From positions 1 through 43,662 of the forward strand of contig JAIBDT010000018.1 in assembly GCA_024686085.1 (NCBI GenBank): a stretch of DNA of 43,662 nucleotides, read 5' to 3'. The translations under genes and the position numbers were made by a program. This document shows, piece after piece, positions 9,819-41,570 of this stretch (positions are counted from its first letter, which is position 1; every line of letters starts with the position of its first letter). Below the pieces are notes generated by a model. That model saw only the letters and a program-made list of their open reading frames with translations, did not search any database and was not told where the DNA came from. The DNA comes from Loktanella sp. GTDB lineage: Bacteria; Pseudomonadota; Alphaproteobacteria; Rhodobacterales; Rhodobacteraceae.

Positions 9819-9832
9819 CTGACATTAATCAA
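9819..9832 (+). promoter_or_regulatory. FixK/FNR-like box (one mismatch) before the cytochrome c operon
   Basis: CTGACATTAATCAA departs from TTGAYNNNNRTCAA only at the first base. It lies 60 bp before the cytochrome ATG, the same distance seen for the boxes of the 24.5-kb cytochrome, the BON gene and the fourth Hsp20. It also lies in the divergent spacer facing the ATPase gene and could serve both. Confidence 0.55.
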
Positions 9833-9892
9833 TCTGTTGCGAAAGCTACGTGAGACAACCTTACTTCAAACCAGAAATTGAAGGGCAAGATT

Positions 9893-10330
9893 ATGACACA
9901 AAAATTGAAAAAATTGGCCATAGCAACGTTGCTGCCAATCTTGATGCATGCTGCGGCGGCCAATGCGCAAACCGCAGATCAAGGCTTCATGCCGGACGAT
10001 ACCGAGTTCATGAATTCTTGCGCGTCATGCCACGGTGCAGATGGCAAAGGTGCTGGTTTTTTAACGCGGTTGTTTCGTGGCGTCGATCCGGGTGATCTGA
10101 CGCAGCTTGCAGCGAACAATGACGGCGTGTTCCCTTATGACAGCGTTTATCAAGTGATTGACGGTCGCGATGATATCGCTGCACACGGGGATCGCAAAAT
10201 GCCCGTCTGGGGTGACAGGTATATGGCGTCATCCATGACCCAGTTCGGCCCCGACGAGGTAAACCAGTTTCGCGTCAGGTCACGTATTCTGGAATTGACC
10301 AACTTCATCCAGTCAATCCAAATTCGCTAA
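9893..10330 (+). CDS. Periplasmic monohaem cytochrome c, 145 aa
   Basis: A signal peptide (residues 1-25, ending ANAQ) precedes one CxxCH haem motif, CASCH (43-47), and a likely distal Met in KMPVWG. It is a class I electron-carrier-type cytochrome. ATG 9893 is preferred over an upstream TTG at 9878 because AAGGG lies 7 nt before it and the signal peptide then has a normal length. The kinase gene follows 11 nt later. It is paralogous to the cytochrome at 24168-24566: same size, same CxxCH spacing, same MPxWG block. Its partner oxidase or dehydrogenase is not in the window. Confidence 0.88.
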   Translation: MTQKLKKLAIATLLPILMHAAAANAQTADQGFMPDDTEFMNSCASCHGADGKGAGFLTRLFRGVDPGDLTQLAANNDGVFPYDSVYQVIDGRDDIAAHGDRKMPVWGDRYMASSMTQFGPDEVNQFRVRSRILELTNFIQSIQIR

Positions 10331-10341
10331 CGTCAAAGTGC

Positions 10342-11373
10342 ATGGAAAAGCCTTCTACCAGTGTCGCGCAGATCAAGCGATTGATTGAAGACAAAAGCGA
10401 TGACAGTTCGGCTGTGGTGCTGCGCGAAACCAGTAAGTCATGGATATTTTTGGCGCAAGACCGCGTCTATAAATTGAAAAAACAGGTGCGCGACGATCTT
10501 CAGGATTTGACCTCGTTGCGCGCGCGCTTTGATAACTGCCTGACAGAAGTTGACCTGAACAGGCGTCTGGCCCGCGAGACATATCTCGGGGTTACCCGCG
10601 TTGTCCGGCACAGCGATGGCACGCTAGGTCTTGGTGGCAACGCGGAAACCGTGGACTGGTTGGTCGAAATGCAACGCCTGCCTGCTGACAAAATGCTCGA
10701 CACTATGGCGGTCAAAGACATTGCTCCGACCGCGAAAATCAGGTCGTCGGTTGATCAACTTGCAGAACGATTGACCGACTTCTACGCGCATTGCCCTGCC
10801 TCACAGCTGAATGCGTCCGAGCTGATAACCATCTTTCACGACCAACAAAAGATGAACTCGACCTGTTTGCGAAACCCACTATTCGTGGAATTTCATCCGC
10901 GTTTCGAAGCTGTCTTTGATGCTTTGAGCATTGCGTTTTTGCGGCACTTCCCTCTCTTCGAAACCCGCGTGAACACAGGGTGGGTACGGGAATGCCACGG
11001 CGATCTGCGGCCAGAGCATATATGCATGACCACTCCGCCCCTTGTTTTTGACTGTCTGGAATTTAACCGGAACCTGCGGCTGGTCGATCCCTTTAGCGAA
11101 ATCATGTTCTTGGGACTGGAGGCGGACATATTGGGTCTCGATTGGATCAAACCCGCTTTGATCACACATCTTGCCCGTGGTCTTGGCGCATCTCCTTTGC
11201 CAGACCTACTGGCCTTGTATGAAACACAACATGCCTTGTTGCGGACCCGACTATGCCTTGCGCATTTGTTAGTGCCAAACCCCAGAACGCCCGCGAAATG
11301 GCTGCCGTTAGGTCTCCGCTATTTTGATGTGGCCGAACGCCGTTTGTTTGGTCCGAACGGATTGGCACGCTAA
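10342..11373 (+). CDS. APH-fold phosphotransferase-like protein (kinase half only)
   Basis: The 343-residue protein belongs to the aminoglycoside phosphotransferase-like kinase fold. The catalytic loop HGDLRPEH is at 219-226, followed by the metal-binding segment VFDCLEFN; an N-lobe strand carries YKLKK (43-47). It is clearly related to the first 330 residues of the kinase at 39453-40985 but lacks that protein's P-loop domain. Resistance to aminoglycosides is unlikely; homologues such as M. tuberculosis Rv2004c are dormancy-regulon proteins of unknown substrate. It sits 11 nt after the cytochrome gene and probably shares its promoter. Its stop overlaps the convergent prs stop. Confidence 0.82.
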   Translation: MEKPSTSVAQIKRLIEDKSDDSSAVVLRETSKSWIFLAQDRVYKLKKQVRDDLQDLTSLRARFDNCLTEVDLNRRLARETYLGVTRVVRHSDGTLGLGGNAETVDWLVEMQRLPADKMLDTMAVKDIAPTAKIRSSVDQLAERLTDFYAHCPASQLNASELITIFHDQQKMNSTCLRNPLFVEFHPRFEAVFDALSIAFLRHFPLFETRVNTGWVRECHGDLRPEHICMTTPPLVFDCLEFNRNLRLVDPFSEIMFLGLEADILGLDWIKPALITHLARGLGASPLPDLLALYETQHALLRTRLCLAHLLVPNPRTPAKWLPLGLRYFDVAERRLFGPNGLAR

Positions 11374-12320
11374 AACGCAACTGCGCGTAGAATGCGCGCA
11401 AATTCATCTGCCGTATTCGCGATTTCTAGTCGATGGGTTTTGGCCCCATCGGGCAACCGGAAAGGTGCAATGCTGTCACTGACAAAAACTCGCTCAAAGT
11501 CATCGCCGGAAAACAGACCCTCCGCACCCTGAGTGAACAGCCCGTGCGCCGCCAGCGCATACACTTTTGCAGCCCCGCGAGCCTTACAGGCACGGGCCGC
11601 CGCGATCATTGTGCCACCCGAGGCGATCATGTCGTCGACGATAACGACGGCGCTATCTTGGTAATTGCCCACAGCATCGCCGCTGGTCATAACCCCGCCG
11701 CTACGGCGTTTCTCCATAAAGCCAAAACCGACCTCGCGCCCCAAGCGAACCTGCAAACTATCCCTGAACAACTGGGCGCGTTTCACGCCGCCTGAATCGG
11801 GCGACATCACAACAAGCGGTTCTGTGCCAAGCCTGAAGGCCATGACATCCGCGAAAACATCGCCAATCTCCAGATGGTGCGTCCGTATGCGAAACGCGTT
11901 TTGGAAAGCCGCAAGATTATGCGCCTCAAGGGTGATGATCTCGTCACAGTTCACCGCCGCGAACAGGTCCGCGACATATCTTGTTGTGACGGGGTCCTGC
12001 GGTTTGGTCCTGCGATCCTTGCGCCCGTAACAAAGAAAAGGCACCAAAGCGGTCACGCGCCTTGCGCCATGATCGCGCATGGTCGCAATCAGAAACAGCA
12101 GATGACAAAGCTTGTCGTGAACACTTTGATCGGGGCCGTCATACAGGCTTTGGATGATGCACACATGTTCGTTGGCAACCTCGCAAAGCGGGCGAATTTT
12201 GCTTTCACCATCGAGAAAGCCGCGAAATTCCAGTGTGGACAGCGTGACCCCCATGGCCGCCGCAATGCGCGCGCCATGGGCATGACTATCCGGCAGGGCA
12301 AACAGACGCATCCTGGCCAT
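11370..12320 (-). CDS. prs: Ribose-phosphate pyrophosphokinase (PRPP synthetase) paralogue
   Basis: This cytoplasmic enzyme would make PRPP from ribose 5-phosphate and ATP. The 316-residue product shows the class I layout: N-terminal half with FLDGES (flexible loop region), the ATP-site segment YGRKDRRTK, and near residue 220 the PRPP-binding motif VVIVDDMIASGGT. Start 12320 has AAGGAG 8 nt upstream; the frame is open further to 12353 but without support. The sequence looks like a divergent extra copy rather than the housekeeping gene. The triple-fusion gene at 13610 begins with a phosphoribosyltransferase domain that would use PRPP, which suggests a functional link. Confidence 0.88.
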   Translation of the reverse strand: MARMRLFALPDSHAHGARIAAAMGVTLSTLEFRGFLDGESKIRPLCEVANEHVCIIQSLYDGPDQSVHDKLCHLLFLIATMRDHGARRVTALVPFLCYGRKDRRTKPQDPVTTRYVADLFAAVNCDEIITLEAHNLAAFQNAFRIRTHHLEIGDVFADVMAFRLGTEPLVVMSPDSGGVKRAQLFRDSLQVRLGREVGFGFMEKRRSGGVMTSGDAVGNYQDSAVVIVDDMIASGGTMIAAARACKARGAAKVYALAAHGLFTQGAEGLFSGDDFERVFVSDSIAPFRLPDGAKTHRLEIANTADEFARILRAVAF

Positions 12321-12461: not shown

Positions 12462-12475
12462 TTGATATGAGTCAA
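12462..12475. promoter_or_regulatory. FixK/FNR box upstream of usp (exact match)
   Basis: TTGATATGAGTCAA matches TTGAYNNNNRTCAA exactly. It lies 67 bp before the Usp start at 12543 and 141 bp before the divergent prs start. The -10 expected for class II activation (12498-12503, CAACAT) is weak. Confidence 0.75.
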
Positions 12476-12542: not shown

Positions 12543-13070
12543 ATGATTGATAGAATCCTACTGGCCGTTGACGGGTCTCAAAATGCCGAGCGCGCCACCG
12601 ATCTCGCCGCCGAGTTGGCAACCAAACTGACGGCGGAATTGTTCATTGTGCATGTGCTGATGCACGGTCGTCCAACCGAAGAGCTGGTGCATATGGCAGA
12701 GGTGGAACACCTCGTGAAAGAAGCACAAGCAGCCATCTCTCCGAGCATCGCATATGTGACAGGAAGTCACCCCGAGTTGCTGGGAGGCAGCAAAACGGAC
12801 CCACGGGGCGAAAGATTAATTTCAGTTCTCGGCGACCAGATCGTCGCAAGGGCGAAAACAATTTGCGCTGAGCAAGGTGCCAAATCCATCAAGACCTCTG
12901 TGCGAACAGGCGATTACGCCGAAGAAATCCTGAACGCCGCCAAGGAATTTGACGCCGATATGATCGTCATCGGGTCGCGCGGACTTGGACTTCTCAAGAG
13001 CACCGTCTTGGGCAGCGTGTCGCAAAAAGTGTTGCATCATGCGAGTTGCAGCGTTGTAACAGTTAGATAG
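12543..13070 (+). CDS. Universal stress protein, single UspA domain, 175 aa
   Basis: One UspA domain covers the whole protein: N-terminal strand RILLAVDGS (4-12), and the C-terminal nucleotide-binding block IGSRGLGLLKSTVLGSVS, which has the G2xG9xG(S/T) pattern of ATP-binding Usps. A longer-than-usual insertion lies at about residues 60-100. The start was set at ATG 12543 because AAGGAG lies 7 nt upstream and the Usp strand begins at once; the frame is open from a GTG at 12483. Single gene, downstream of an exact FixK/FNR box. Confidence 0.92.
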   Translation: MIDRILLAVDGSQNAERATDLAAELATKLTAELFIVHVLMHGRPTEELVHMAEVEHLVKEAQAAISPSIAYVTGSHPELLGGSKTDPRGERLISVLGDQIVARAKTICAEQGAKSIKTSVRTGDYAEEILNAAKEFDADMIVIGSRGLGLLKSTVLGSVSQKVLHHASCSVVTVR

Positions 13071-13442: not shown

Positions 13443-13456
13443 TTGATACCGATCAA
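13443..13456. promoter_or_regulatory. FixK/FNR box in the 13.4-13.6 kb divergent spacer (exact match)
   Basis: TTGATACCGATCAA is an exact and fully symmetric match. It may serve the small HTH gene to the left (73 bp) or reinforce the promoter of the operon to the right, which has a second box at 13563. A TATATT (13471-13476) to its right is not at the class II distance. Confidence 0.75.
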
Positions 13457-13562: not shown

Positions 13563-13604
13563 TTGACAATCATCAATATTGAAAACCCACACAAGTCATA
13601 GATT
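13563..13604 (+). promoter_or_regulatory. FixK/FNR box with class II-spaced -10, promoter of the six-gene stress operon
   Basis: TTGACAATCATCAA (13563-13576) matches exactly. A TAGATT (13599-13604) begins 29.5 bp from the box centre, where the -10 of a class II promoter belongs. The predicted transcript start (about 13610-13611) coincides with the ATG at 13610, which has no Shine-Dalgarno, so a leaderless mRNA is predicted. Confidence 0.72.
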
Positions 13605-13609
13605 TACTT

Positions 13610-16240
13610 ATGGAACAATTGATTCACTCTTTTATTGACCGCACAGATGCAGGTCGGAAATTGGCCAAAGCCTTAACCGCGCTGGGTCTTGATCGTCCTG
13701 TGATTTTTGCACTGCCGCGCGGCGGCGTGCCCGTAGGTGTCGAGGTCGCGAAAGCACTTAACGCACCGCTTGATCTGCTGCTTGTGCGCAAGGTCGGCGC
13801 GCCGCACAACCCCGAGGTCGCCTTGGGTGCCATTGTTGAGGGTGCAAACCGCGAGGTCGTCATCAATGAAGATGTGAAGCGCCTGTCAGGTGCAGACGAA
13901 GCATATATCGCAGCGGCTGTCGCCGAGCAACGCGACGAGCTTGAACGGCGCAAAAAGGTTTATCTTGGCGACCGCCCTAGGTTGGACCCAAGAGGGCGCA
14001 CCGTTGTTATCGTGGATGACGGGCTGGCGACTGGTGCCACCATGAAAGCGGCCCTGATCGGGCTAAAACGCAGCAGCCCTGAACGGATTATTCTGGCGCT
14101 TCCGGTCGCGCCAAAGTTGGCCTTGGAAGAGATGTCCGAACTGGTCGACGATGTCATTTGCCTATGTCCTGCGACGCTGTTTCGCGGCGTAGGGAGCTTT
14201 TATCACGACTTTCCTCAGCTGACAGACGCCGAAACGGTCGCCCTGCTGGCGCAGATTCACACCAGCCCTCAGGGGTTCTTAGAGACGCACAAACGACAGG
14301 TGGCCATTCCACCGCTCGGGCTGACAGGCGATCTAGCTGTCCCGCCAAATCCGCGCGGCATCATCCTGTTTGCCCACGGCAGCGGATCTAGCCGACGCAG
14401 CCCGCGCAACACTTACGTGGCCGAAAAACTGAATACCCTAGGGTTTGCGACACTTCTATTCGATCTATTGTCGCCCGAGGAAGGGCAAGACCGCCGCAAT
14501 GTTTTTGACATTCCGCTCTTGGCTGACCGCGTGGTCGAAGCCTCGATCTGGATAACTTCGGAGCCCGATCTAGAGGATTTGCCGCTTGGACTTTTTGGAG
14601 CGAGCACGGGCGCAGGCGCGGCACTTGTGGCGGCTGCCGAACTGAAAGGTCGTGTCGATGCGGTAGTGTCACGTGGCGGCAGGCCTGATTTGGCGATGGC
14701 TTTCCTTGCAGAGGTCGCCAGCCCGACACTCCTCGTGGTCGGCGGTCTGGACCACGATGTCATCCGCTTGAACAAACTTGCCTTTGCGAAACTGACCTGC
14801 ACTAAAAAGATCGAAATCGTTGCGGGTGCGGGGCATCTGTTTGAAGAGGCGGACACATTGGACAGCGCCATCGAGCATGCCGCGCAATGGTTCAAAACGC
14901 ATCTGCGCCGCGAGACAACAAAGCGTCCCGCACCCGAAATCGCAGAGACGCCCGCTATCCTAAGAACGGCTGCCGACCCCCTCCCCCCGATTACCGATCC
15001 CGATTTTGCCAAGGCGTTCGACAAGTTCGGATCAAAGCGTGTTGTTCTATTGGGCGAAGCATCGCACGGGACCTCGGAATTCTATCAGGCCCGCGCCGCC
15101 ATCACCCGACGTCTGATCGAAGAGCACGGGTTTTCGATTGTCGCACTAGAGGCCGACTGGCCGGACGCCGCAGCCGTTAATAGCTATGTCCGGCACCGCT
15201 CGCAGACGGCGATGAAACCTTCGCCCTTCGCCCGCTTTCCAACATGGATGTGGCGCAACGTCGAGTTCGATGCCTTCACGCGGTATTTGCATCAGTACAA
15301 TGGCACAAGAAAGAGTGACGACCGTGTCGGCGTCTATGGCCTGGACCTCTACAATATGAATGCATCTATAACGGCTGTTCTGGCGTATCTGGACCGTGTT
15401 GACGAAAAGGCTGCAAAGGTCGCCCGCTCGCGCTATGCGTGCTTGTCAGAGTGGTCGCAAAACCCCGCTGCTTATGGGCGAGCGGCCCTTTCGCCGGGGT
15501 TTTCGATTTGCGAAACTCCGGTTGCCCAAATTCTAATCGACCTTCTGAAACAGCAGTTGGACTATGCCGCCCATGACGGAGATCAGTTCTTTGATGCCGC
15601 GCAAAACGCCCGACTGGTCGCCAATGCGGAACGCTACTACCGCGTGATGTATTACGGCTCGCAACTGTCGTGGAACCTGCGCGACCAGCATATGTTCCAG
15701 ACCTTAAGCCAAATTCTCGACCATGCCGGACCGGACAAAAAAGCGGTCGTTTGGGCGCATAATTCCCATATCGGCGATGCACGGTTTACCGACATGGGGC
15801 GCACCCGTGGTGAGCTGAATATCGGTCAGCTTTGCCGCGAGAAATTCGGCGATACGGCTTCCCTGATCGGCTTTGGAACGGGGTCCGGTACCGTTGCTGC
15901 TGCATCCGAATGGGATGCGCCGATGGAGACCAAAGACATCCGCCCCCCGCGCCCCAACAGCTACGAAGCGCTGTGTCGCGCCGTCAATTTGGACCGCTTT
16001 TTGTGGGATTTCAAAAAGGATCAAGCACCCGAGTTTCTGCGGCTTTTGAAACAGGAAAGATTGCAGCGCTACATCGGCGTCATTTACCGCCCCGAGACTG
16101 AACGCGCGAGCCACTACAGTTATGCCAGCCTGCCCGACCAGTATGACGCTTTCGTCTGGTTTGATAAAACACGCGCCGTCACAGCGCTGCCCACACCGAC
16201 AAGCGCAACAGAGGACGAAACCTATCCGTTTGGCCTTTGA
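13610..16240 (+). CDS. Triple fusion: phosphoribosyltransferase + dienelactone-hydrolase-like + erythromycin esterase-like
   Basis: The 876-residue protein joins three enzymes. Residues 1-215 are a type I phosphoribosyltransferase with the PRPP motif VVIVDDGLATGAT (132-144). Residues about 230-432 are an alpha/beta hydrolase of the dienelactone hydrolase type, with nucleophile elbow GASTG (Ser332), likely acid Asp381 and His409 (GAGHL). Residues about 455-860 are an erythromycin esterase/EreA-like domain with GEASHGTSE (482-490) and VWAHNSHIGD. In M. tuberculosis, Rv0571c (PRT + hydrolase) and Rv2030c (PRT + esterase) carry pairs of these domains and both belong to the DosR regulon; here all three are in one chain. 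Substrates are unknown and macrolide resistance should not be assumed. First gene of an operon with three Hsp20, DegP and GrpE. No ribosome binding site is visible. Confidence 0.9.
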   Translation: MEQLIHSFIDRTDAGRKLAKALTALGLDRPVIFALPRGGVPVGVEVAKALNAPLDLLLVRKVGAPHNPEVALGAIVEGANREVVINEDVKRLSGADEAYIAAAVAEQRDELERRKKVYLGDRPRLDPRGRTVVIVDDGLATGATMKAALIGLKRSSPERIILALPVAPKLALEEMSELVDDVICLCPATLFRGVGSFYHDFPQLTDAETVALLAQIHTSPQGFLETHKRQVAIPPLGLTGDLAVPPNPRGIILFAHGSGSSRRSPRNTYVAEKLNTLGFATLLFDLLSPEEGQDRRNVFDIPLLADRVVEASIWITSEPDLEDLPLGLFGASTGAGAALVAAAELKGRVDAVVSRGGRPDLAMAFLAEVASPTLLVVGGLDHDVIRLNKLAFAKLTCTKKIEIVAGAGHLFEEADTLDSAIEHAAQWFKTHLRRETTKRPAPEIAETPAILRTAADPLPPITDPDFAKAFDKFGSKRVVLLGEASHGTSEFYQARAAITRRLIEEHGFSIVALEADWPDAAAVNSYVRHRSQTAMKPSPFARFPTWMWRNVEFDAFTRYLHQYNGTRKSDDRVGVYGLDLYNMNASITAVLAYLDRVDEKAAKVARSRYACLSEWSQNPAAYGRAALSPGFSICETPVAQILIDLLKQQLDYAAHDGDQFFDAAQNARLVANAERYYRVMYYGSQLSWNLRDQHMFQTLSQILDHAGPDKKAVVWAHNSHIGDARFTDMGRTRGELNIGQLCREKFGDTASLIGFGTGSGTVAAASEWDAPMETKDIRPPRPNSYEALCRAVNLDRFLWDFKKDQAPEFLRLLKQERLQRYIGVIYRPETERASHYSYASLPDQYDAFVWFDKTRAVTALPTPTSATEDETYPFGL

Positions 16241-16292
16241 TGCGTCTCGGCTGGGCACACATTACCCACCGCTCAAGAGAAGGAGAACCCCC

Positions 16293-16736
16293 ATGCTACA
16301 GACAACTCATTCCCCAATGAACTTTGCGGGCCCGTTCGCGGACATGCGCCGCATGCAAAACGCTATGAACCAAATATTTGACGGCGCCAGACTTCCCACA
16401 CAGTCCTGGACCTACCCGCCCGTCAACCTCTGGGCAGCGGAGGATGGGATCGTGATAACCACTGAACTTGCGGGACTAACCGAGCAAGACATCGAATTGC
16501 CGGTCGAAGACAAAGTGCTGACAATTCGCGGTACCTACCCCGCGCCACAAAGCGGCGACGAGATTGTCTGGCACCGCCACGAGCGTGTGGACGGGGCGTT
16601 CTCGCGGTCCGTCGAACTGCCGTTTCGGGTCAATCCCGACCTCATCAACGCGCGTTTTGGAAATGGTGTGCTGACGGTGGAAATGCAGCGGCCCGAAGAT
16701 GCCAAACCCAAACGCGTCCAGATCAAATCAAGCTGA
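16293..16736 (+). CDS. Small heat shock protein Hsp20 (copy 1), 147 aa
   Basis: An alpha-crystallin domain occupies about residues 40-140: VNLWAAEDGIVITTELAG (strand region), ELPVEDKVLTIRG, and the closing GNGVLTVEMQRPE of the conserved G-x-L motif. These ATP-independent holdases bind unfolding proteins. Start 16293 has AAGGAG 7 nt before it; the frame is open much further upstream inside the fusion gene. It follows the fusion gene by 52 nt. Compared with copies 3 and 4 it is more divergent and lacks the GEKK segment. Confidence 0.92.
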   Translation: MLQTTHSPMNFAGPFADMRRMQNAMNQIFDGARLPTQSWTYPPVNLWAAEDGIVITTELAGLTEQDIELPVEDKVLTIRGTYPAPQSGDEIVWHRHERVDGAFSRSVELPFRVNPDLINARFGNGVLTVEMQRPEDAKPKRVQIKSS

Positions 16737-16760
16737 AATCACACTTGAAAGGAGAGTGAC

Positions 16761-17162: not shown

Positions 17163-17206
17163 TCCGTCTTTCGAACCGATCAATCCAGTCAGAAAGGACC
17201 AGAGAA

Positions 17207-17710: not shown

Positions 17711-17761
17711 CGCGCTGGGGCCGATATTTTTCGCCCCATCCCCTAGGTTTCAAGGAGATAA

Positions 17762-19168: not shown

Positions 19169-19195
19169 CCGTCAAATCCAAAAAGGAAGCCAAAA

Positions 19196-20366: not shown

Positions 20367-20408
20367 TTGACTCTGATCAATAAATAATTTTGCAGCCTGC
20401 GGCATAAT
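20367..20408 (+). promoter_or_regulatory. FixK/FNR box with class II-spaced -10, promoter of the lon-like gene
   Basis: TTGACTCTGATCAA (20367-20380) matches exactly. CATAAT (20403-20408, five of six consensus bases) starts 29.5 bp from the box centre. A transcript start near 20415 is predicted, giving a leader of about 170 nt that would contain the small open frame at 20477. Confidence 0.75.
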
Positions 20409-26225: not shown

Positions 26226-26236
26226 ATTCGGTGTCG

Positions 26237-27964: not shown

Positions 27965-27978
27965 TTGACTTTGATCAA
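27965..27978 (-). promoter_or_regulatory. FixK/FNR box upstream of the BON gene (exact match)
   Basis: TTGACTTTGATCAA (plus-strand reading) matches exactly and lies 59 bp before the BON start at 27905. The -10 is not obvious (CAAAGT at 27943-27938 is the best candidate). Confidence 0.75.
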
Positions 27979-34800: not shown

Positions 34801-37260
34801 AAGACGGTTCTTACCCGTCAAAAGGACCCGCCAAAGCGTACGGAAAATGGCGTCCAGCGCGAGGAGCGTGTCGCTCACAAGGAAGGCAATCGAGAAAAAC
34901 CACCGGCCGCCGGTCGTTCGAATTTGGTGAATTGCGCTGCCCAATGCACCACGGCGGATTCCCCCCGTCGCAATCGAGAATAGCTCTCCCACCAAATAGC
35001 TTCCTGGTGCGGCAACGGCCAAAATAGTCCAGACCAGCGCACTCCCAGGCAGGGCCAGCCATGCCCCCAAAAACAGCAGCAAAAGCGCGGGTGGCATCAG
35101 GCTTCGCCGCAGGTTATCAACCATTTTCCAGCGGTCTAGTGTCGATAACGTCGTGGGCGTCTTGCCATCTTGGGCGTGTGGCACCCTACGCCCCAACCAA
35201 GGTACAAGCTGCCAATCGCCCCGCATCCAGCGGTGCTGACGCATCGCAAATTCGGGGTAGGTCGCAGGCAAATCTTCGTAAAGTACAAGGTTGCTTGCCA
35301 GCGCCGCGCGCGCATGCAGCCCCTCAAAAAGATCGTGACTAAGAATATGATTCTTCGGAACGCGGCCTGCCATGCTGCGATCTAGGGCGGCAATATCATA
35401 TATCCCTTTGCCCACGTAAATGCCGGTGCCGAAGAGGTCCTGATAGACGTCGGAAACCGCCCGACTATAGATATCCACCGCTGTGTCGCCACCATAAAGA
35501 TGGGTGAAATGGGTGCCTTCGCCAAGCTTGGGCAAAATCTCGATGCGCGGCTGCAAGATCGCATAGCCTGCGATGACGCGCCCCGTTTGCGGATCATTTA
35601 CCGCACGGTTTAGAGGATGCGCCATGATGCCAACCATACGCGATGCCGATCTGGGTGGGATCTGCGTGTCGGCATCAAGCGTGATTGCGTAGCGGGTGCT
35701 GCGCAGCCTCTCAATGGGGCCCGCGACCACATCAAACGCATCCTCCCCCTGCCCTAGCACATAGCGGTTGAACTCCTCTAACTTCCCACGCTTGCGTTCC
35801 CAAGCCATCCAACACCCTTCAGCGGCATTGTATTTACGGTGTCGGTGCAACACCATAAACGGCCCACCATCCTCCGCCGGATAGCGTCGGTTAAGGGTGT
35901 CGATCCGGTCCCGAAGAGCAGCCTCAATCTCGGCGTCTTGCCGCAGGGTTTCCGTCTGCGCATCAATGGGGTCCGACAGTATCACAAACGTCAAAGCGGG
36001 ATCTGGATTTGCCAGTTGCAGAATTTCGATCTTTTGCGCAATTACATCAACCTCGGCGACGGAGCCTATAATAACCGGCACCACAATGGACGTCGCAAAC
36101 TCGGGCGGGATCGATTTTGAAAAATCCAATTCGGGCAGGGTTTTGGGGCGGCTGAATTTTGTGATGATCCAATGCCCCGCCCAAACGCTTGGGATGGTAA
36201 CGGGCAACAAGGTCAACGCAATTCCAACCACCCACTGCATTGGGGTCGCATGATAGGCGTGCAGATAGAGCGCCGACACAAGGATCGCAGCGATAACAAG
36301 CAAAGACAGCCCCGCCGCATAAAGCCAGCCGACATACCCCGAAAGGTGGCGAAGCAGGGCAAGCCCACGCGGCACGCGGCAGTCCAACGCGGCTTCAATC
36401 ACAGAAAACCCGTCGCCGACGAGCCAATATCCGACATGCCGCCGCACACTGTCCTTGGGTTCACCCTGCGACAGTCTAACAGCTTCACGGGCCACTGAGG
36501 GTTCGGAATGGGCGCAACGCGCACCCAACCTCTCCACCGTTTTTCGGTAATGGTCGCGGGTCTCAAACGTCATCTTCGCATAAATACCCGCAGGATCCTT
36601 GGAAAGCTCCGCTTCGATGCAGCTGGTGCCGTCCACAAAATCCGGCCACGTGATGGCTTCAATCGCGATCAGACATGCAATCGCTTTCGAAATCTCATCA
36701 ACGGGCCTGCCACCCGCCGCGCCAAGTGTCTCGCCGCTCAGTTTCAAATCCTGCGACAGGCTCGCATCCATCGTGCCAATCGCCTGAATAAGCCGCTCCA
36801 CACAAACCAACCGAAGCATCGACGGAAGCGCCCAAAGCTCTGCATTGGTAAGCTTCACATGGGCCTGATAATCCGCTACATAATCCGTCAAACCGGCGAG
36901 CGTAATTTGGGGCTTGAGGTCATCAAACGCTGCGCTCGCCAAGGCAAAGACGCGCGGCACCCCCGGCCCCTCGGGCCCTGCAAGCGCCGGAAGCTTGTCG
37001 TAGAAATCGCGGGGCATACCAGACTGCAAGCGCCTGAAGGCGCGCTTGATCTGATAGTCATTGTCCAAAAGCCAGTCGGCAGCGCGTTGTTGATCGGGCG
37101 CAGGTTCGGCGCAATATTGCCTCACACGGCCAAACCAGTCAGGCAAGCGAGGCAAGGCACGATAACTGTCAAGCAGAAGAGGTGGGCCTTTTCTTATGGC
37201 GTGACGCGCGACCGATTGCCGTGGTTTAGTGTCGGGTTTCTGCCCGTCCGGATTGATCAT
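28807..37260 (-). CDS. ndvB: Cyclic beta-1,2-glucan synthase-like giant protein (NdvB/ChvB family), 2817 aa
   Basis: This inner-membrane enzyme would polymerise UDP-glucose into periplasmic cyclic glucan. Order of parts: N-terminal cytoplasmic region; membrane helices at about 315-365; a GT84-type glycosyltransferase with TLDADTQIPP near residue 530 and the QxxRW motif QHRWMRGDW near 677; further membrane helices at about 730-890; then a long region with two glucoamylase-like/GH94 repeats ending in a phosphorylase domain with the catalytic-type block EAGDWNDGMDRIG near 2487. NdvB proteins are usually about 2800 residues, so it is full length. It overlaps the upstream Usp gene by 4 bp (ATGA), so both are made from the promoter at about 38.4 kb. 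Classical roles are osmotic adaptation and host interaction; this location suggests stress use. Confidence 0.93.
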   Translation of the reverse strand: MINPDGQKPDTKPRQSVARHAIRKGPPLLLDSYRALPRLPDWFGRVRQYCAEPAPDQQRAADWLLDNDYQIKRAFRRLQSGMPRDFYDKLPALAGPEGPGVPRVFALASAAFDDLKPQITLAGLTDYVADYQAHVKLTNAELWALPSMLRLVCVERLIQAIGTMDASLSQDLKLSGETLGAAGGRPVDEISKAIACLIAIEAITWPDFVDGTSCIEAELSKDPAGIYAKMTFETRDHYRKTVERLGARCAHSEPSVAREAVRLSQGEPKDSVRRHVGYWLVGDGFSVIEAALDCRVPRGLALLRHLSGYVGWLYAAGLSLLVIAAILVSALYLHAYHATPMQWVVGIALTLLPVTIPSVWAGHWIITKFSRPKTLPELDFSKSIPPEFATSIVVPVIIGSVAEVDVIAQKIEILQLANPDPALTFVILSDPIDAQTETLRQDAEIEAALRDRIDTLNRRYPAEDGGPFMVLHRHRKYNAAEGCWMAWERKRGKLEEFNRYVLGQGEDAFDVVAGPIERLRSTRYAITLDADTQIPPRSASRMVGIMAHPLNRAVNDPQTGRVIAGYAILQPRIEILPKLGEGTHFTHLYGGDTAVDIYSRAVSDVYQDLFGTGIYVGKGIYDIAALDRSMAGRVPKNHILSHDLFEGLHARAALASNLVLYEDLPATYPEFAMRQHRWMRGDWQLVPWLGRRVPHAQDGKTPTTLSTLDRWKMVDNLRRSLMPPALLLLFLGAWLALPGSALVWTILAVAAPGSYLVGELFSIATGGIRRGALGSAIHQIRTTGGRWFFSIAFLVSDTLLALDAIFRTLWRVLLTGKNRLEWTSAAHASTRSEGQSIRYRSWALMWPSSALALVLAGHLGVNSPSGFWPAVPVLLLWLVAPEISVWSARPRYFRTQSLDETDRKFLIMVARRTWHFFETFVGPDDNWLPPDNHQDGQKVETAHRTSPTNIGMFLVSALAARDMGFITTSDFAARARNTVDTLEQMARYRGHLLNWYKTGTLEPLEPQYVSTVDSGNLAVCLVTLKQGCLELAAAPVIDRACFGCLETTLDLLCAAIRATPNYDEALLDKTEHAVRQQIALAATSPLEWESTHAALSGPLWVDLEISAQAAIGEAPNLPLAQVSEISTWLERFHHDLHAITRDIETYMPWLLMLSDAPSAAQATAHAIAYDLYSAARGRQEPLSAATALDFVTAWQSVHTDLDQVTLTWLNDLRQSMQDGHDHETDLRDALTDLAVKSGEIAFGMDFAFLYDRAPRLFFIGYNLSLGKMDNSHYDLLATEARLASYFAIAKHDVPIDHWFAFSRPITRLRGKPSILSWNGSMFEYLMPPLFLPSYRDTLLGESELTAVEFQRDYAQNRGVPWGISESAFGMTDAAGTFQYRAFGVPGLGIRRGLTEDLVIAPYGTALALCGWPQAASENLQVLASHGALTRYGFIDALDFTPGRTTQNAAFVPVTTFMAHHQGMVQAAIVNALCDNVMVNRFLREKPMQAMDLLLQEQVPWNEPLELGRADELWVDEVDVPQGSDLTPWVPSPDFIVPHVHLLGNGRMSSLITNSGGGGLSLGATALTRWRPDPTRTAQGLWVYLRDIDGGDLWSLGSAPTGHADADTKCVLHQHMVELLRRHDGIIARMDITVAPYDDVEVRRVTLVNESDSERTIELTTYAEVVLAPPLEDERHPAFSKLFVHSAFLSDEQALFFNRRPRRPETQPPVLLHKLISNGPDIAVTSWDTDRKRVLGRNQSARSPEGVRMGLSETAGWTLDPVMALQVRVQLKPRETKQLVFLTVSGRSQAEVLRVAARYPMAAIDRTFHDALIETGRDVQKLGIAPENLPELQLLSSLLVHTHQTFRTPPATDLDGWNGQQDLWQFAISGDFPILMLELSHPEESALLDLVLRGHRLWRNVGLQVDLVILRDAATSYEEPLREKVLSILGDTNATSLLGMRGGIHLIAADQLAAGLRRGVQAAAHVVLRDDKRSLREMLDRVLEPQDRAPLFMTGPVPDYQAVPEISKPHDLQFDNGYGGVDPATGDYLIHLRSGMRTPAPWCNVLANDDFGCLVSEAGLGMTWAINSGEHRLTPWSNDPVTDQPGEVLYLRDEADGEVWTTTAMPMGQDATCQTRHGAGVTTWRQNSHGLEQEVTAFVPVDGSVKLVRLRLKNLSGQARRISATYYAEWLLGALESTARPHVACHYDAALKAIVGRNRWNPEFASRAAFLTGSQEPHSVTGDRTDFLGHDGDVFDPDGLRRWDLGGRFPQGGDACAAYQIHVDIPAGGQIEVVFALGEVAHQDDLAQAVQRWKDPAEADRALRTVNAVWAQRLGSVQVETPDPAFDLMINRWLPYQNRSCRIMARAGFYQAGGAYGFRDQLQDVLGLLINDPQRARKHILLAARQQFEAGDVLHWWHPPAGRGVRTRCSDDYIWLAYVTARYVKATGDKGILDEEIPFLLAPALRADEDDRYALFEEGETGTLYDHCARALDRMMTTGAHGLPLMEAGDWNDGMDRIGRDGRGESVWLAWFEIATVALFAPLAHDAERGDHADLWGTYSEGLQQAIHTYGWDGHWYLRAFDDAALPWGSSANDECRIDLIAQAWSVLSGLPVDERAQKALTSAGENLVDEQARLIRLLTPPFDKTDRDPGYIRAYPPGIRENGGQYTHAATWLGAAYVAIKDGDRAYQVFDIINPIVRTLTMQDADRYLREPYVLAGDVSGTGSQTGQGGWSWYTGAAGWSLQLGVSGLLGVTPENGAVRIEPCLPTAWGRAAVVLETENGRLEIRIEDPDHLGHGKIEIAVDGRVLAEPVVAFPGQGRTRQVVVTLISAVRAQEVV

Positions 37261-38285
37261 CCGTCTGTTCCCGTCGGTTGCCGCACACCCTGCGAAGAGG
37301 GGTTGGCGAACGCGTGGGCGTTATTGCGGCCACGCAGGTGGCGCACCATCAACACAGGAATCTCGGCCCGATCAAGAATGAAACGGGCTACGTCACCCGT
37401 CGCCACATCGCTGTGCCCGCTTTGTCCATGTGTTGCCATGACTAGAAAATCGACGGCTTCCTGAGACGCGAAATCCAACAAGGCACGGCGCGCATCGCCT
37501 CCCTGCAAAATCCAAGTGGAAACCTTTAGCCCGTTGTGCGCCAAAGTATTCTTGATCCGCGCCATATGGACTTCACCGGCCTGCCTGTTCCGCTTTACAA
37601 CCAGTTCATGCAAACGCTCCGCTTCAGAGTCTTTCACGCCAAACTCCGTCAATCCCGGTTCTGGCATGACATAACACAGCAACACCTCCGCCTTCTCGGC
37701 ATTGGCCAACATGATGGCCATCGGCAGTGCCGCCTCCGCACGGGCCGATCCGTCAAGCGGCACCATAATGCGGCGGTAGTGTTGGTCTTTAGCAAGCACA
37801 GCGTCCTCTGGGATCATCAAGATCGCCGCACCATGCGCCTCCAGCACACCACAGGCCGTTTTGCTGACTTGCCACCCCAGGCTATTGCGCGACCTTATCG
37901 CTGCCGTAATATCGCGATGTCGCTGGCCCATCAGCGCGGAAATCTGTCCGATACAAGGTCCCTCCAACAGCTTCACCTCGCAGGGCTGCTCATGGCCTTT
38001 GATCGCCTCGGCCAAACCCGTGAGCCATTTCATGTTCTTTTGTTTCTTGAGATTCCAATCCACTGGATCGATGGGTCCGTTGTGGTTTGACGCGTCCGAC
38101 ATGACATGCACAAGCGTCACGCTGCCCTGAAACGCACGCGCGACCCGTTGCGCGTGCCGCAACGCAGACGTTTCTTCCTGCGTGTCATCCACGAAAATAA
38201 GAACATCTGATCGGCTGTTCCCATTGCTTGTCCGTGTGGTACGCGCATCGGCGCGCTGCGGCTCATCGTCCAATTCACTTGTCAT
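37257..38285 (-). CDS. Tandem universal stress protein, 342 aa
   Basis: Two Usp units. The first (about residues 25-165, VLIFVDDTQEETSALRHA) is degenerate and lacks a clear ATP motif. The second (about 170-325) has the strand RIMVPLDGSARAEAALPMA and ends VMATHGQSGHSDVATGDVARFIL, close to the G2xG9xG pattern but altered in the last part. Start 38285 has GGAG 8 nt upstream; an open extension to 38306 has only a TTG. The stop overlaps the NdvB start. Co-expression with a cyclic glucan synthase is unusual for Usp. Confidence 0.88.
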   Translation of the reverse strand: MTSELDDEPQRADARTTRTSNGNSRSDVLIFVDDTQEETSALRHAQRVARAFQGSVTLVHVMSDASNHNGPIDPVDWNLKKQKNMKWLTGLAEAIKGHEQPCEVKLLEGPCIGQISALMGQRHRDITAAIRSRNSLGWQVSKTACGVLEAHGAAILMIPEDAVLAKDQHYRRIMVPLDGSARAEAALPMAIMLANAEKAEVLLCYVMPEPGLTEFGVKDSEAERLHELVVKRNRQAGEVHMARIKNTLAHNGLKVSTWILQGGDARRALLDFASQEAVDFLVMATHGQSGHSDVATGDVARFILDRAEIPVLMVRHLRGRNNAHAFANPSSQGVRQPTGTDG

Positions 38286-38462
38286 TCTGCGATCTCCATC
38301 GGGCAAGATTGGCGCAAAAAAATCCTGACATCCGGCAGCGGCCAGATTGAAACGCCGTTCAAAATTCGATCACAAAACGGTCGAAACAAAGCGAAGGCAG
38401 CGTTAGTCAATCAATTCAAATCACCTGTTGGAAACATCATCGCCCACAAAACGGTGCCGCGA

Positions 38463-38476
38463 TTGAGACATATCAA
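38463..38476. promoter_or_regulatory. FixK/FNR-like box (one mismatch), likely for the usp-ndvB operon
   Basis: TTGAGACATATCAA differs from TTGAYNNNNRTCAA at one base. On the minus strand GATGAT (38441-38436) starts 28.5 bp from the centre, so it could activate the usp-ndvB operon. It also lies upstream of the exact box serving Hsp20 copy 4. Confidence 0.5.
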
Positions 38477-38506: not shown

Positions 38507-38547
38507 TTGATTTTCATCAATATCCGTTTCCCAAGGACTGCTAGATC
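38507..38547 (+). promoter_or_regulatory. FixK/FNR box and -10, promoter of Hsp20 copy 4
   Basis: TTGATTTTCATCAA (38507-38520) is an exact match. TAGATC (38542-38547) lies 28.5 bp from the box centre and resembles the TAGATT of the 13.6-kb promoter. Predicted leader about 28 nt, carrying AGGAG. Confidence 0.75.
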
Positions 38548-38581: not shown

Positions 38582-39064
38582 ATGTCATATCAGGATTTTT
38601 TACCAGCGAGCTGGGTCAAGGATCGCAAGAACGAAGCCCATCCCCTCGCCATACTGCGCAGAGAAGTTGACGATTTGTTTGACGACTTTGGTAATGGTTT
38701 CTTCAACCGCACCCACGCGGTTGCCATTCATTCCAACGTTAGCGAAACAGATCATGAATACTGCATCACCGCCGAACTTCCCGGCATGACAGAGGCGGAC
38801 GTCGACGTCTCGATCACAGGTGATCGCATCGTCATCAAGGGCGAAAAAAAGTCTGAAACCGAAGAACGGGGCGACGAGAAAGGTCGCGAATTCCACCGTA
38901 TCGAGCGGAGCTCGGGGTCATTCCAGCGCAGCCTTACTCTGCCCTTCAAGATTGACCCCGACAAGGTGGTGGCGAAGGTCAAGAGCGGCGTTCTGACCGT
39001 GACTGTTCCTAAGCCGTCTGAAGCAATTGCAGACACTAAAAAGATCAAAATTTCCCACGAATAG
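38582..39064 (+). CDS. Small heat shock protein Hsp20 (copy 4), 160 aa
   Basis: Class A-type Hsp20 closely related to copy 3: VSETDHEYCITAELPGM, VSITGDRIVIKGEKK, FQRSLTLPFKIDPDKV and VKSGVLTVTVPKP, with a KKIKISHE tail carrying an IxI motif (IKI). ATG 38582 follows AGGAG by 7 nt; the frame is open upstream to 38492 without support. Stand-alone gene with its own FixK-type promoter and a strong terminator. Confidence 0.94.
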   Translation: MSYQDFLPASWVKDRKNEAHPLAILRREVDDLFDDFGNGFFNRTHAVAIHSNVSETDHEYCITAELPGMTEADVDVSITGDRIVIKGEKKSETEERGDEKGREFHRIERSSGSFQRSLTLPFKIDPDKVVAKVKSGVLTVTVPKPSEAIADTKKIKISHE

Positions 39065-39075
39065 AGGTGTCGCAA

Positions 39076-39124
39076 CCGTGCCGCTGACAACATTGCTAGC
39101 GGCACGGCTCTTCTTTGTTTTTCC
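39076..39124 (+). terminator. Intrinsic terminator after Hsp20 copy 4
   Basis: CCGTGCCGCT (39076-39085) pairs perfectly with AGCGGCACGG (39098-39107), loop 12 nt, followed by a T-rich run (CTCTTCTTTGTTTTT, 39108-39122 or so). It begins 12 nt after the stop codon. Confidence 0.85.
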
Positions 39125-39151
39125 ATCAAGGATGCTCGGGCATCTGAGGCC

Positions 39152-39280
39152 CTAGTTGCCGCGCCGCGCCAACATTGCAAACAACAGCCCGACCCCAAGT
39201 GCGCCTAAAAAATCGCTGAAGCGGGTGCTCGCGCACGTCGGCCTCCATGGTTTTTCAAGGCGTTCAACCTTTTTGCCCAT
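39152..39280 (-). CDS. Possible small membrane protein, 42 aa
   Basis: The frame from ATG 39280 gives a basic start (MGKKVERLEKPWRP) and one hydrophobic segment (FLGALGVGLLFAMLA) with a basic end (RRGN). No ribosome binding site is obvious and no family is recognised. The remaining 39125-39346 sequence has nothing else. Confidence 0.25.
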   Translation of the reverse strand: MGKKVERLEKPWRPTCASTRFSDFLGALGVGLLFAMLARRGN

Positions 39281-39346
39281 ATTTTTGCATGTTCTGGTGT
39301 GGCAGCGCAATGTCGTCATCCCGACAGTCAAAAGAATAGACCACAT

Positions 39347-39360
39347 TGATATTCCGCAAC
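39347..39360 (+). promoter_or_regulatory. Variant FixK/FNR-like box before the APH/P-loop kinase
   Basis: TTGATATTCCGCAA has a perfect left half and a variant right half (CGCAA). The same variant occurs before the Usp at 41601. It ends 92 bp before the kinase ATG; no good -10 is seen at the class II distance. Confidence 0.35.
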
Positions 39361-39452
39361 CATAAGCAGAAGAAACCCGCCAAAATCTGTTTGATGGCGT
39401 TTCTCTCGCGGTCCACGCGATGCTGTCAAAACACAGCCCAAAAGGTTTTCAA

Positions 39453-40985
39453 ATGCCCGAAAATTCCCAAAAAGAAGTCATCGACTTTTTGTCCAACAGC
39501 AAAAACCTACCGGGCCACAAACCCGTCGAGATCATTCGCACCCATGGCGCTTTGATATTCCTGAGCGGCAAATACGCCTACAAAATCAAACGTAATGTGC
39601 GGTATGACTATCTTGATTTTTCGACCCTGCAAAAACGGCACGATATGCTGCTGCGCGAGCTGGAATTGAACGCGCCAACAGCGCCTTCGATCTACCGTGA
39701 TGTCATTGCCGTGACGCGCGATTTGGCAGGGCAGCTGCATTTGGAAGGCGCGGGCGACGCCGTGGAATGGGTGCTGCGGATGCACCGCTTTGACATCGCC
39801 GATGAGCTTGACAAAGTGGCCGCGCGCGGTGCTCTCGACGATTCCTTGGCGATGGATTTGGGTAAGGTCATCGCCCAATATCATGCGCAAAACAATATCT
39901 GCTCGGACAAACGCGGTGGCGACCTGATCCGCGCCATTCTCGACGAGTTGAACGCCGCCTTTGCGACTATGAAACATCAACTTGATGGCGGGGAAATTGA
40001 TCACTTTTCCACCGCCAGCGACAGCACATTCCGCCGCATCGTTGCGAATCTGAATGCGCGGTCGGGTGGCGGGCATATCCGGCGTTGCCACGGCGATCTG
40101 CACCTGCGCAACATCGTGTTGATCGACGGGACACCAACGCCTTTTGATGCGCTGGAGTTCGACGAAACCCTTGGCACCAGCGACGTGCTTTACGATCTGG
40201 CGTTTCTGTTAATGGACCTTATGCACGCGGGGTTGGTGCGCGCCGCGAACATCAGCTTCAACAGCTATCTGTTTCATGCGGACGTCCGCGATCACTATGG
40301 CGCGCTCTCGCTACTGCCCTTGTTCCAAAGCATCCGCGCCGCGATCCTTGCGATGGTGATCGTGCAGACAGCGCGGTTCAAGCCCGACGACCAAACCCTT
40401 ATCCCAGAGGCGCGCAAATACCTCACGGAGGCAAACAGCTATCTTGCGCCCGCACCCGCACAACTCGTTGCCATCGGCGGGGTTTCGGGGACAGGAAAGA
40501 CCGTTCTCGCAACATCCTTATGCCCGCAGATTGGCCCTGCCCCCGGTGCCCTGCATTTGCGCAGCGACCTTGAACGCAAGGCGCTGTTTGGCGTGTCTCC
40601 CCTCACCCGTTTGCCCGCATTGGCCTACGGTCCCGAGATCAACGCGCGCGTCTATGACACCATGTGCAGTAAGGCGCGGGCGGCGTTGAAGGCCGGACAT
40701 AGCGTCGTGATGGACGCCACATGGCTGCAGGAAACGAACCGAAAGGCACTGCAAAACCTTGCCTGCCAAACTGGAACGGAGTTCACGGGCCTTTGGCTTT
40801 CGGCAGACACGCAGGCGCTTGAGGCGCGTGTCGCAGCGCGCAAAAATGATGCATCCGACGCCGATGTGACGGTCGTTCGCCAACAGGTCAAAACCCTGAA
40901 TGCGCCCAGACATTGGATGGTAATCGACGCCGCCTCAGACCCAACTCATACTTTGGCGCAAGCGGTCGATGCACTGAGAAACTAG
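39453..40985 (+). CDS. Two-domain kinase: APH-fold + P-loop (AAA_33) kinase, Rv2004c-like, 510 aa
   Basis: Residues 1-330 are an APH-like domain with catalytic loop HGDLHLRN (213-220) and metal-binding FDALEFDE (231-238). Residues 335-510 are a P-loop kinase of the gluconate kinase/AAA_33 type with Walker A GGVSGTGKT (342-350) and a downstream VVMDATWL block. M. tuberculosis Rv2004c has the same order of domains and belongs to the DosR regulon; substrates are unknown. Start 39453 has AAAGG at 8 nt; an ATG at 39420 is in frame but unsupported. The protein at 10342-11373 resembles the first domain alone. Its stop overlaps the convergent cbpM-like stop. Confidence 0.88.
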   Translation: MPENSQKEVIDFLSNSKNLPGHKPVEIIRTHGALIFLSGKYAYKIKRNVRYDYLDFSTLQKRHDMLLRELELNAPTAPSIYRDVIAVTRDLAGQLHLEGAGDAVEWVLRMHRFDIADELDKVAARGALDDSLAMDLGKVIAQYHAQNNICSDKRGGDLIRAILDELNAAFATMKHQLDGGEIDHFSTASDSTFRRIVANLNARSGGGHIRRCHGDLHLRNIVLIDGTPTPFDALEFDETLGTSDVLYDLAFLLMDLMHAGLVRAANISFNSYLFHADVRDHYGALSLLPLFQSIRAAILAMVIVQTARFKPDDQTLIPEARKYLTEANSYLAPAPAQLVAIGGVSGTGKTVLATSLCPQIGPAPGALHLRSDLERKALFGVSPLTRLPALAYGPEINARVYDTMCSKARAALKAGHSVVMDATWLQETNRKALQNLACQTGTEFTGLWLSADTQALEARVAARKNDASDADVTVVRQQVKTLNAPRHWMVIDAASDPTHTLAQAVDALRN

Positions 40986-41290
40986 TTGCCCGTCAAATGC
41001 GCTAGCCTGCGCACCAACTCGTCGCGCTCGGCCATCAAGGCGAGCACCAACGCCAAGGCCGCCACATTCAATTCAAAATCGCGCACCAAGTGCTGCGCTT
41101 TACGCGCCCGCGCGACGTTAATGGGGTCGAACCGCCATTGTGACGGATCAGAACCGAATGGCGTCAGAATGCCATGCGCGACAAGTGACTCGATCCAGTC
41201 TTGCCCGACGTGGCAAAACCGGCAAAGCTCCGTCAACGTCAGCGTCTCGATCAATTCAACCTGACGATATCTCATTGTTGTTTTCTTCAT
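40982..41290 (-). CDS. cbpM: CbpM-like chaperone modulator, 102 aa
   Basis: Fits the CbpM family (MerR-like, about 100 residues): LTLTELCRFCHVGQDWIESLVAHGIL is the helix-turn-helix-like N-terminus, followed by WRFDPINVARARKAQHLVRDFELN and AALALVLALMAERDELVRRL. CbpM inhibits the DnaJ-type co-chaperone CbpA by binding its J domain. In other genomes it lies directly after cbpA; here no J-domain gene exists in the window. GAGG is only 2 nt before ATG 41290, so ATG 41275 could be the true start. Confidence 0.8.
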   Translation of the reverse strand: MKKTTMRYRQVELIETLTLTELCRFCHVGQDWIESLVAHGILTPFGSDPSQWRFDPINVARARKAQHLVRDFELNVAALALVLALMAERDELVRRLAHLTGN

Positions 41291-41528
41291 ATCCTCACTC
41301 TTTCATTCCAAATTTTGAGTCGATTGCCATTTCACGCGCCATCAATTTTTGAAGCGCCCGCTCTTGTTTTGGATTTCAGTAGGGGTTTGATGATCAGCAA
41401 CATCGCACACAAATTGTTCTGCCGTGCGTTCGGCCATACACCGCCATGATCATAGAGATTTTTGTTCACCATCTGTTCAACCGCAAATTTTGTCATGATT
41501 AATAATAGTCGAGGCCAGCAGGGGCCGA
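41291..41528. other. Spacer between cbpM-like gene and usp promoter
   Basis: No gene is supported in the divergent spacer; it must contain the promoter of the cbpM-like gene, for which no FixK-type box was found. Confidence 0.4.
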
Positions 41529-41570
41529 TTGATTTTTCGCAACTCCCGTTCTCAAAAACGGCAATAGAAT
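41529..41570 (+). promoter_or_regulatory. Variant FixK/FNR-like box with class II-spaced -10, promoter of the third Usp
   Basis: TTGATTTTTCGCAA (41529-41542) has an intact left half and the CGCAA variant right half. TAGAAT (41565-41570) starts exactly 29.5 bp from its centre, as at 13.6 and 20.4 kb, which argues that the site works despite two mismatches. Confidence 0.5.

Follow-up and report, generated by a model that had tools for sequence, protein, structure and literature searches.

A predicted FixK-box regulon over an accessory stress island of a Rhodobacteraceae bacterium and its candidate sensing cascade

The stress island and its boxes

The window analysed here is a stretch of 43,662 nucleotides of Loktanella sp., the whole of one contig (termed C50) in a 2.99 Mb genome assembly of 109 contigs that is 91% complete. 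It carries genes for universal stress proteins, Hsp20 proteins, proteases and cytochromes c, and a FixK/FNR-type palindrome, TTGAYNNNNRTCAA, stands between them at seven places (12462, 13443, 13563, 20367, 24628, 27965 and 38507). The data described below point to a real, conserved FixK-box regulon spanning this stress island. The genes concerned, with their strands, are:

6964..9669, minus strand: P-type cation ATPase gene, start codon uncertain (the open reading frame, ORF, opens at 9825)
9893..11373, plus strand: cytochrome c-like protein (cytochrome c1) and phosphotransferase-like protein, no Pfam match, named by eye
11370..12320, minus strand: phosphoribosyl pyrophosphate (PRPP)-synthetase-like protein, from Pfam
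12543..13070, plus strand: universal stress protein Usp1, from Pfam
13610..19741, plus strand: phosphoribosyltransferase/erythromycin-esterase fusion, three Hsp20 proteins, DegP-like protease and GrpE; the same row in the relatives G084 and G163
20583..23021, plus strand: Lon-like protease
23359..24566, minus strand: cytochrome c-like protein (cytochrome c2) and DUF6782 putative metallopeptidase
27255..27905, minus strand: protein with three BON domains
28807..38306, minus strand: NdvB-like GH94 protein (2817 amino acids, aa) and universal stress protein Usp2
38582..42422, plus strand: Hsp20d, AAA_33 kinase-like protein and Usp3, with a MerR_2 gene (40982-41275, minus strand) between
42529..43662, plus strand: first 378 residues of a FixL-like PAS histidine kinase, whose gene runs off the contig end

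Pfam totals for the window include three universal stress proteins and four Hsp20 proteins. The two short proteins with a CxxCH motif gave no Pfam match at 1e-5 and were named cytochromes c by eye, and no tRNA or RNA family was found in the window. The boxes and their near copies, with distances to a -10 element counted from the box centre, are:

9764..9777: one mismatch; between the P-type ATPase (minus strand) and cytochrome c1 (plus strand) genes; weak alone
9819..9832: one mismatch; 60 bp before the cytochrome c1 ATG (9893); without a good -10 at the expected place
12462..12475: exact; 67 bp before Usp1 (12543-13070, plus strand), the PRPP-synthetase-like gene (minus strand) starting on the other side
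13443..13456: exact; before a divergent 88-codon ORF (13103-13369, minus strand), whose G084 counterpart also has a box
13563..13576: exact; 33 bp before the fusion-Hsp20-Hsp20-Hsp20-DegP-GrpE row (13610-19741, plus strand); -10-like hexamer at 29.5 bp
20367..20380: exact; 202 bp before the Lon-like protease ATG (20583); CATAAT at 29.5 bp
24628..24641: exact; 61 bp before cytochrome c2 (ATG 24566, minus strand) and the DUF6782 gene
27965..27978: exact; 59 bp before the BON-domain gene (ATG 27905, minus strand), whose G084 homologue has a box too
38463..38476: one mismatch; upstream of Usp2 and the NdvB-like gene (minus strand)
38507..38520: exact; 61 bp before Hsp20d (38582-39064, plus strand); -10-like hexamer at 28.5 bp
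39346..39359: two mismatches; before the AAA_33 kinase-like gene (39453 or 39420, plus strand); a sequence at chance level
41529..41542: two mismatches; 58 bp before Usp3 (41601-42422, plus strand); TAGAAT at 29.5 bp

An earlier reading of this DNA, made from the letters alone (the sequence-only reading), had listed the seven exact sites and described them as always lying between genes. All were found where it had placed them, and all seven are intergenic, provided that the ATGs at 24566 (cytochrome c2) and 27905 (BON) are the true starts. Its near copies at 9819 and 38463 (one mismatch) and 41529 (two mismatches) were also recovered; the copy it had put at 39347 begins at 39346, with two mismatches, and the one at 9764 had escaped it. 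It had seen no box in the left accessory region, and no exact site was found left of 9.8 kb. The box-to-ATG distances that it gave as 59-67 bp for six units were measured as 58-67 bp, the units at 13563 and 20367 being the exceptions, and its -10 spacings of 29.5 bp (13563, 20367 and 41529) and 28.5 bp (38507) were correct.

The 88-codon ORF beside the box at 13443 has no Pfam match, and 88-aa ORFs next to the fusion gene in G084, G163 and G168 look by eye like its counterparts. Upstream of the Usp2-NdvB pair, exact boxes stand 172.5 and 175.5 bp ahead in G084 and in a further locus (L114), respectively.

Density of the box in the genome

The exact motif was counted in 100 dinucleotide shuffles of the window, which gave a mean of 0.26 and a largest value of 3, against the 7 observed. 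Genome-wide there are 50 exact sites, while a reversed control pattern occurs 3 times, and the probability that at least seven of the 50 would fall in C50 is 8e-6. A second contig, C82, holds nine further exact boxes, all nine intergenic by gene calling, and the predicted regulon therefore extends past the window. Outside these two contigs there are 34 exact sites, 14 of them intergenic and 20 inside genes (three of the latter at most a few bases from a gene boundary). The density of intergenic boxes is about 40-fold higher in C50 and C82 (77 kb together) than in the rest of the genome; equal density elsewhere was what the sequence-only reading had named as the observation that would count against it. 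The 14 remaining intergenic sites include boxes before genes read as ccoG and ccoN, near FnrL.

The near copies were assessed separately. Sites with at most two mismatches number 73 in the window, the seven exact ones included, against 57.4 expected, and none of the 100 shuffles reached 73. With so many expected, two-mismatch copies mean little as sequence and only their position speaks for them. The copies at 39346 and 41529, indistinguishable from chance in sequence, were accordingly rejected as independent evidence. One-mismatch boxes also occur within genes, among them those at 12568, 18212 and 21657.

Promoter geometry was explored by counting TANNNT on both strands of the DNA beside all non-coding boxes, with no orientation chosen and with the expectation taken from the other offsets. 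The count peaked 28.5/29.5 bp away from the centre of the box: in C50 and C82, 8 of 32 strand views have the hexamer there against 0.55 expected, and in relatives 17 of 118 against 1.3 expected. Such a spacing indicates class II geometry, as given by an activator centred at about -41. Two marks of a FixK/FNR box (anaerobox) promoter, a TTGAT-type palindrome above chance before genes and a fixed -10 spacing of class II type, are both found here. Among box-gene pairs within 400 bp, 19 of 93 have a centre-to-start distance of 62-76 bp; the locus L107 was left out of this count because it shares a contig with G084.

Conservation of the island and its boxes

Genes were called with a simple codon-score caller, with which some starts are shifted and some regulators are missed. 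'Non-coding' takes in the first 60 bases of each called gene in the counts for fusion loci, and the first and last 60 in the counts for promoter geometry, box-gene pairs and FixK stretches. The Rhodobacteraceae metagenome-assembled genome G084 carries the same genes with eight exact boxes in 60 kb, and it mixes homologues of C50 and C82 genes.

Loci with the phosphoribosyltransferase/esterase fusion, or with its esterase half only, were taken from the best 80 of 575 matches among named genomes, of which 79 loci were kept. The 38 loci with a full-length or near-full-length fusion (703 kb) contain 52 non-coding exact boxes, spread over 26 loci, compared with three in the 41 loci (739 kb) that have the esterase half only. 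When all 256 palindromes of this form were ranked in the non-coding DNA of the 38 fusion loci, TTGA-N6-TCAA came first with 68 occurrences, the next having 30.

Only five of 56 genus genomes have the full-length fusion, which marks the island as accessory. The other four carry the same genes, and their stretches, as far as read, contain 7, 5, 6 and 1 boxes; the islands of two of these genomes, G158 and G163, also include a homologue of the CheB/CheR-PAS kinase that C82 encodes. In C82 itself this gene (28169-32587; L087 and L088) encodes a 1472-aa protein, read as a CheB-CheR-PAS-kinase-receiver fusion with a FixL-like PAS stretch. Another genome, G166, has a broken fusion gene in two pieces with an internal stop (C72:95430-96944) and has kept its FixK-type gene; it was not counted as an island genome.

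A FixK-type gene and its candidate partners

The window ends within a histidine kinase gene, and C82 begins with two regulator genes:

42529..43662 of the window, plus strand: FixL-like PAS histidine kinase, incomplete
C82, ORF 34-804, minus strand: OmpR-type response regulator (PF00072 and PF00486)
C82:955-1626, plus strand: FixK-type CRP/FNR protein, without the FNR cysteines

The best matches of the kinase PAS domain are FixL haem-domain structures. H65 and R85, at positions corresponding to the FixL haem pocket, are the same in all seven kinases aligned and presumably serve in haem binding as they do in that pocket. The aligned congener kinases run on into a receiver-like C terminus (VEDN..., DLVMP and LRKPY, by eye). 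On C82, fixK is followed by repC, repB and repA-type genes in a row, outside the window.

FixK-type orthologues (above 230 bits, the next match scoring 109) are present in 18 of 56 genus genomes, and 21 of a family sample of 198 genomes have a FixK-type match above 150 bits. The three genes were recounted by tblastn because the codon-score caller had missed some regulators: among 18 congener FixK stretches the kinase is present in 15, the regulator in 17 and all three together in 15. The window kinase is colinear with the first part of those 15 congener kinases, at 42-51% identity. The 340 kb round 18 FixK copies in 17 congeners contain 51 exact boxes, 49 of them non-coding. One genome, G175, has a second FixK-type gene at a contig start (C68; L231); behind it come genes of the Hsp20, universal stress, Lon-like and C82-like kinds, and this 16.6 kb stretch carries five boxes.

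The relationship between box and FixK-type gene was further studied across the genus. Genomes with the gene (18) have on average 11.2 boxes per Mb and those without it (38) have 6.8 (Mann-Whitney p 4e-7), and the difference persists without the five full-length-fusion genomes (p 3e-5). All five of these have the FixK-type gene (Fisher 0.0022). The density of the reversed control motif did not differ by FixK status (p 0.13).

The gene order and a short C-terminal match suggest that the right end of the window continues into C82 after about 0.4 kb, and such a join is very likely. The plus frame that stops at base 37 of C82 reads ATCLHSAFAGG, which resembles the kinase C termini ANALSALFDGG (5 of 11 residues, by eye), and the kinase stop would overlap the regulator stop there, as it does on a Sulfitobacter plasmid. 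The window and C82 would in that case lie on one repABC plasmid.

A candidate relay site before fixK

A repeat of the form GATACA-N4-GATACA-N4-GATAC is conserved ahead of FixK-type genes. With one mismatch allowed, the triple pattern has a single match in the 2.99 Mb genome, at C82:866-890, before fixK; this copy reads GATACA-N4-ATTACA-N4-GATACC, and its middle repeat departs from the published consensus of the rhizobial K-box. The two-unit K-box pattern stands before fixK in 16 of the 18 congener stretches and also on plasmids of Tropicibacter oceani and Sulfitobacter sp. DSM 110093. The Tropicibacter plasmid has a second K-box-like match (L239, 12016-12031) before another OmpR-type regulator gene (12104-12838).

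Autoregulation of fixK was set aside as a candidate, as no FixK box with at most one mismatch lies upstream of the gene itself. The same search in the 18 congener stretches gave no such box in 15 and one near match each in L232 and L235; L231 was empty owing to the contig end.

Related plasmids

The Sulfitobacter plasmid pDSM110093_a has its kinase, regulator and FixK genes surrounded by genes for universal stress, CBS and cytochrome proteins and for a cbb3 oxidase; three boxes were counted over 40.6 kb. The regulator and FixK genes of the Tropicibacter plasmid adjoin replication genes and ppsA, with one box. A stretch of an Ensifer sp. PDNC004 plasmid (L243, 10.6 kb) shows a similar row of stress genes within the Rhizobiaceae: universal stress and BON genes lie next to a related regulator (46%), an exact K-box (GTTACA-N4-GTTACA) and a CRP/FNR gene, and four boxes are present. 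A plasmid of Rhizobium sp. 11515TR carries the same three genes together at 40-50% identity, with no K-box by the pattern used; this identity bears on a possible common descent with the rhizobial genes. In the 42.6 kb read of a Salipiger plasmid that carries the fusion gene there is one box, and neither a K-box nor a stress row was found. Neither box nor K-box was found in an Azospirillum plasmid region, and regions of S. meliloti and R. sullae have boxes with no OmpR-type partner matched.

Proposed mechanism and its rivals

One interpretation of these data, which we favour with reasonable though not full confidence, is that the window covers most of an accessory stress island belonging to a bacterium of the Yoonia group and that the boxes are FixK-type operators within a local cascade. 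Low oxygen would activate the haem-PAS kinase encoded from 42529, which would pass phosphate to the OmpR-type regulator of C82, a counterpart of FxkR. This regulator would bind the K-box-like triple repeat at C82:866-890 and turn on fixK (C82:955-1626). FixK, a predicted class II activator, would then bind the 16 exact intergenic boxes of the window and C82 and jointly switch on chaperones, proteases, universal stress proteins, cytochromes c, cation ATPases and glucan synthesis. The parts of this interpretation differ in strength: the island regulon is very probably oxygen-controlled, its control by the island's own hFixL-FxkR-FixK cascade is probable, and FnrL, encoded elsewhere beside cco genes, may be a partner on the same boxes. 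The sequence-only reading, which covered one contig and named no regulator beyond the FnrL/FixK type, had proposed one FixK/FNR-type regulon over the island. The sites look right for such a regulon and are concentrated in the island, which is very probably under one regulon, but that regulon reaches beyond the window to C82; the regulator type also agrees, with the difference that the FixK of C82, together with the local kinase and FxkR-like regulator, is a better candidate than FnrL alone.

Several observations weigh against the cascade as drawn. The window and C82 are separate contigs, and the island and the three regulatory genes lie on different contigs in G158 and G163. The C82 FixK has the recognition helix ETVCR, against ETVSR or ETISR in congeners. 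No box was found in 12 of the 38 fusion loci; of seven other family genomes, covered in the region of the fusion gene or its esterase half, G110, G003, G141, G047, G048 and G148 have no exact box and G103 has one, G141 being box-free despite a FixK-type relative (158 bits). Some fixK carriers are poor in boxes (G166 and G195), and the genus test ignores kinship among genomes and uses rounded sizes for the relatives.

The presence of FnrL in the genome also counts against it. This protein has the iron-sulphur cysteines and, as its recognition helix (ETVSR) is similar, it should read the same boxes; the neighbouring ccoG and ccoN carry the same box, and FnrL of Dinoroseobacter shibae directly activates three usp genes within a reported set of 69 transcription units (PMC5398030). 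The boxes could then be operators of the genome-wide 4Fe-4S FnrL alone, with the FixK-type protein serving other genes and the island an accessory extension of the Rhodobacterales FnrL regulon. This is unlikely, given that 51 of 56 genus genomes match the FixK query with a CRP/FNR protein, mostly at FnrL level, yet box density tracks the FixK-type gene and boxes crowd round that gene (the 49 non-coding boxes in 340 kb). As described, the FnrL regulon is like the island in bacterial family, motif and usp targets, and differs in its direct iron-sulphur oxygen sensor and dispersed targets.

It is less probable still that control is of FixK/FNR type with a signal mainly other than oxygen, the boxes being read by a nitric-oxide or redox protein of Dnr/NnrR type. 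Four clear CRP/FNR proteins are encoded in the genome, two of them on contigs C56 and C107, the C56 gene adjoins an Rrf2-type gene, and the Dnr proteins of D. shibae are reported to share sites with FnrL (PMC5398030); but no nitrogen-oxide enzyme was recognised among the identified island genes, the local kinase is FixL-like, and the three regulatory genes have their own relay site. That the boxes are chance palindromes of AT-rich intergenic DNA can be dismissed: 20 of the 34 sites outside C50 and C82 lie in genes, so the motif does arise by chance, yet the shuffles, the reversed pattern, the intergenic placement, the palindrome ranking in relatives and the -10 spacing all reject chance or base composition as the origin of the island boxes.

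Comparison with known systems

The proposed cascade resembles that of nodule bacteria. In Rhizobium leguminosarum and R. etli, hFixL signals via FxkR, which binds GTTACA-N4-GTTACA before fixK, and the cysteine-free rhizobial FixK binds TTGAT-N4-ATCAA (PMC7888657, PMC4999443). The likeness extends to a haem-type PAS kinase, an OmpR-type (non-FixJ) regulator beside fixK, a K-box, a cysteine-free FixK and the target motif, while the repeat before the present fixK differs in being mostly GATACA and in three copies. The host here is one of the Rhodobacteraceae, the contig has repABC genes and the near targets are stress genes. A survey of 50 genomes reports FxkR from no species but R. etli, R. leguminosarum and S. 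meliloti; for the Rhodobacterales included it gives FnrN-type proteins only (PMC4999443).

A predicted alphaproteobacterial FixK regulon has members like those of the island (Hsp20, cytochrome c class I, a putative kinase and a CBS protein, with FixL/FixJ; Dufour et al. 2010, PMC2908626). Its genes are dispersed, an OmpR-type relay is not part of it in the available text of that study, and FixK is described there as generally restricted to Rhizobiales. The lxa locus of Burkholderia is an accessory block of about 50 genes with many universal stress proteins and strong low-oxygen induction, for which an FNR/FixK-type regulator has been suspected (PMC9733578, PMC6127331, PMC3759415). The likeness is by gene kind only; the host is a betaproteobacterium and the regulator is not known to be in the locus.

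Among the matches listed for literature on FxkR, on FixK/FixL with Roseobacter or Rhodobacterales and on hFixL/FxkR with stress proteins, judged by title and the start of the abstract, no description of the cascade in Rhodobacterales was recognised, which does not prove its absence, and no literature was found on FixK in Yoonia. Oxygen control of the hFixL-FxkR-FixK kind is known from nodule bacteria. Here the cascade appears in members of the Rhodobacteraceae, which are not known to be nodule bacteria, and its apparent targets are genes for chaperones, proteases and universal stress proteins.

As the sensing relay starts at the island edge and seems to continue on a plasmid, the whole response may move between bacteria together. 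It is conceivable, although we hold this only tentatively, that the sensor, relay, activator, operators and dozens of stress genes form a self-contained hypoxia-survival regulon on one repABC replicon of the Rhodobacteraceae, one that spreads between marine alphaproteobacteria with its gene content reshuffled and its operator kept. It would be an example of a regulator and a dispersed target set possibly spreading together, and a candidate explanation for the survival of such bacteria through oxygen shortage. The motif also offers a route to finding more islands of this kind.

Other features of the window

The left accessory region has an AbiEi/AbiEii-type toxin-antitoxin or phage-defence pair (463-2165), without boxes. 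At the island edge, a 108-aa ORF (6628-6954) gives a partial match to ABC-2 transporter permeases and is perhaps a gene remnant; a one-mismatch box lies by it at 6534. Inside the island, an IS3-like element (25350-26500, minus strand) comprises an integrase core ORF and a short upstream ORF, and a CcdB-family toxin gene (PF01845; 28080-28379, minus strand) lies between the BON and NdvB-like genes.

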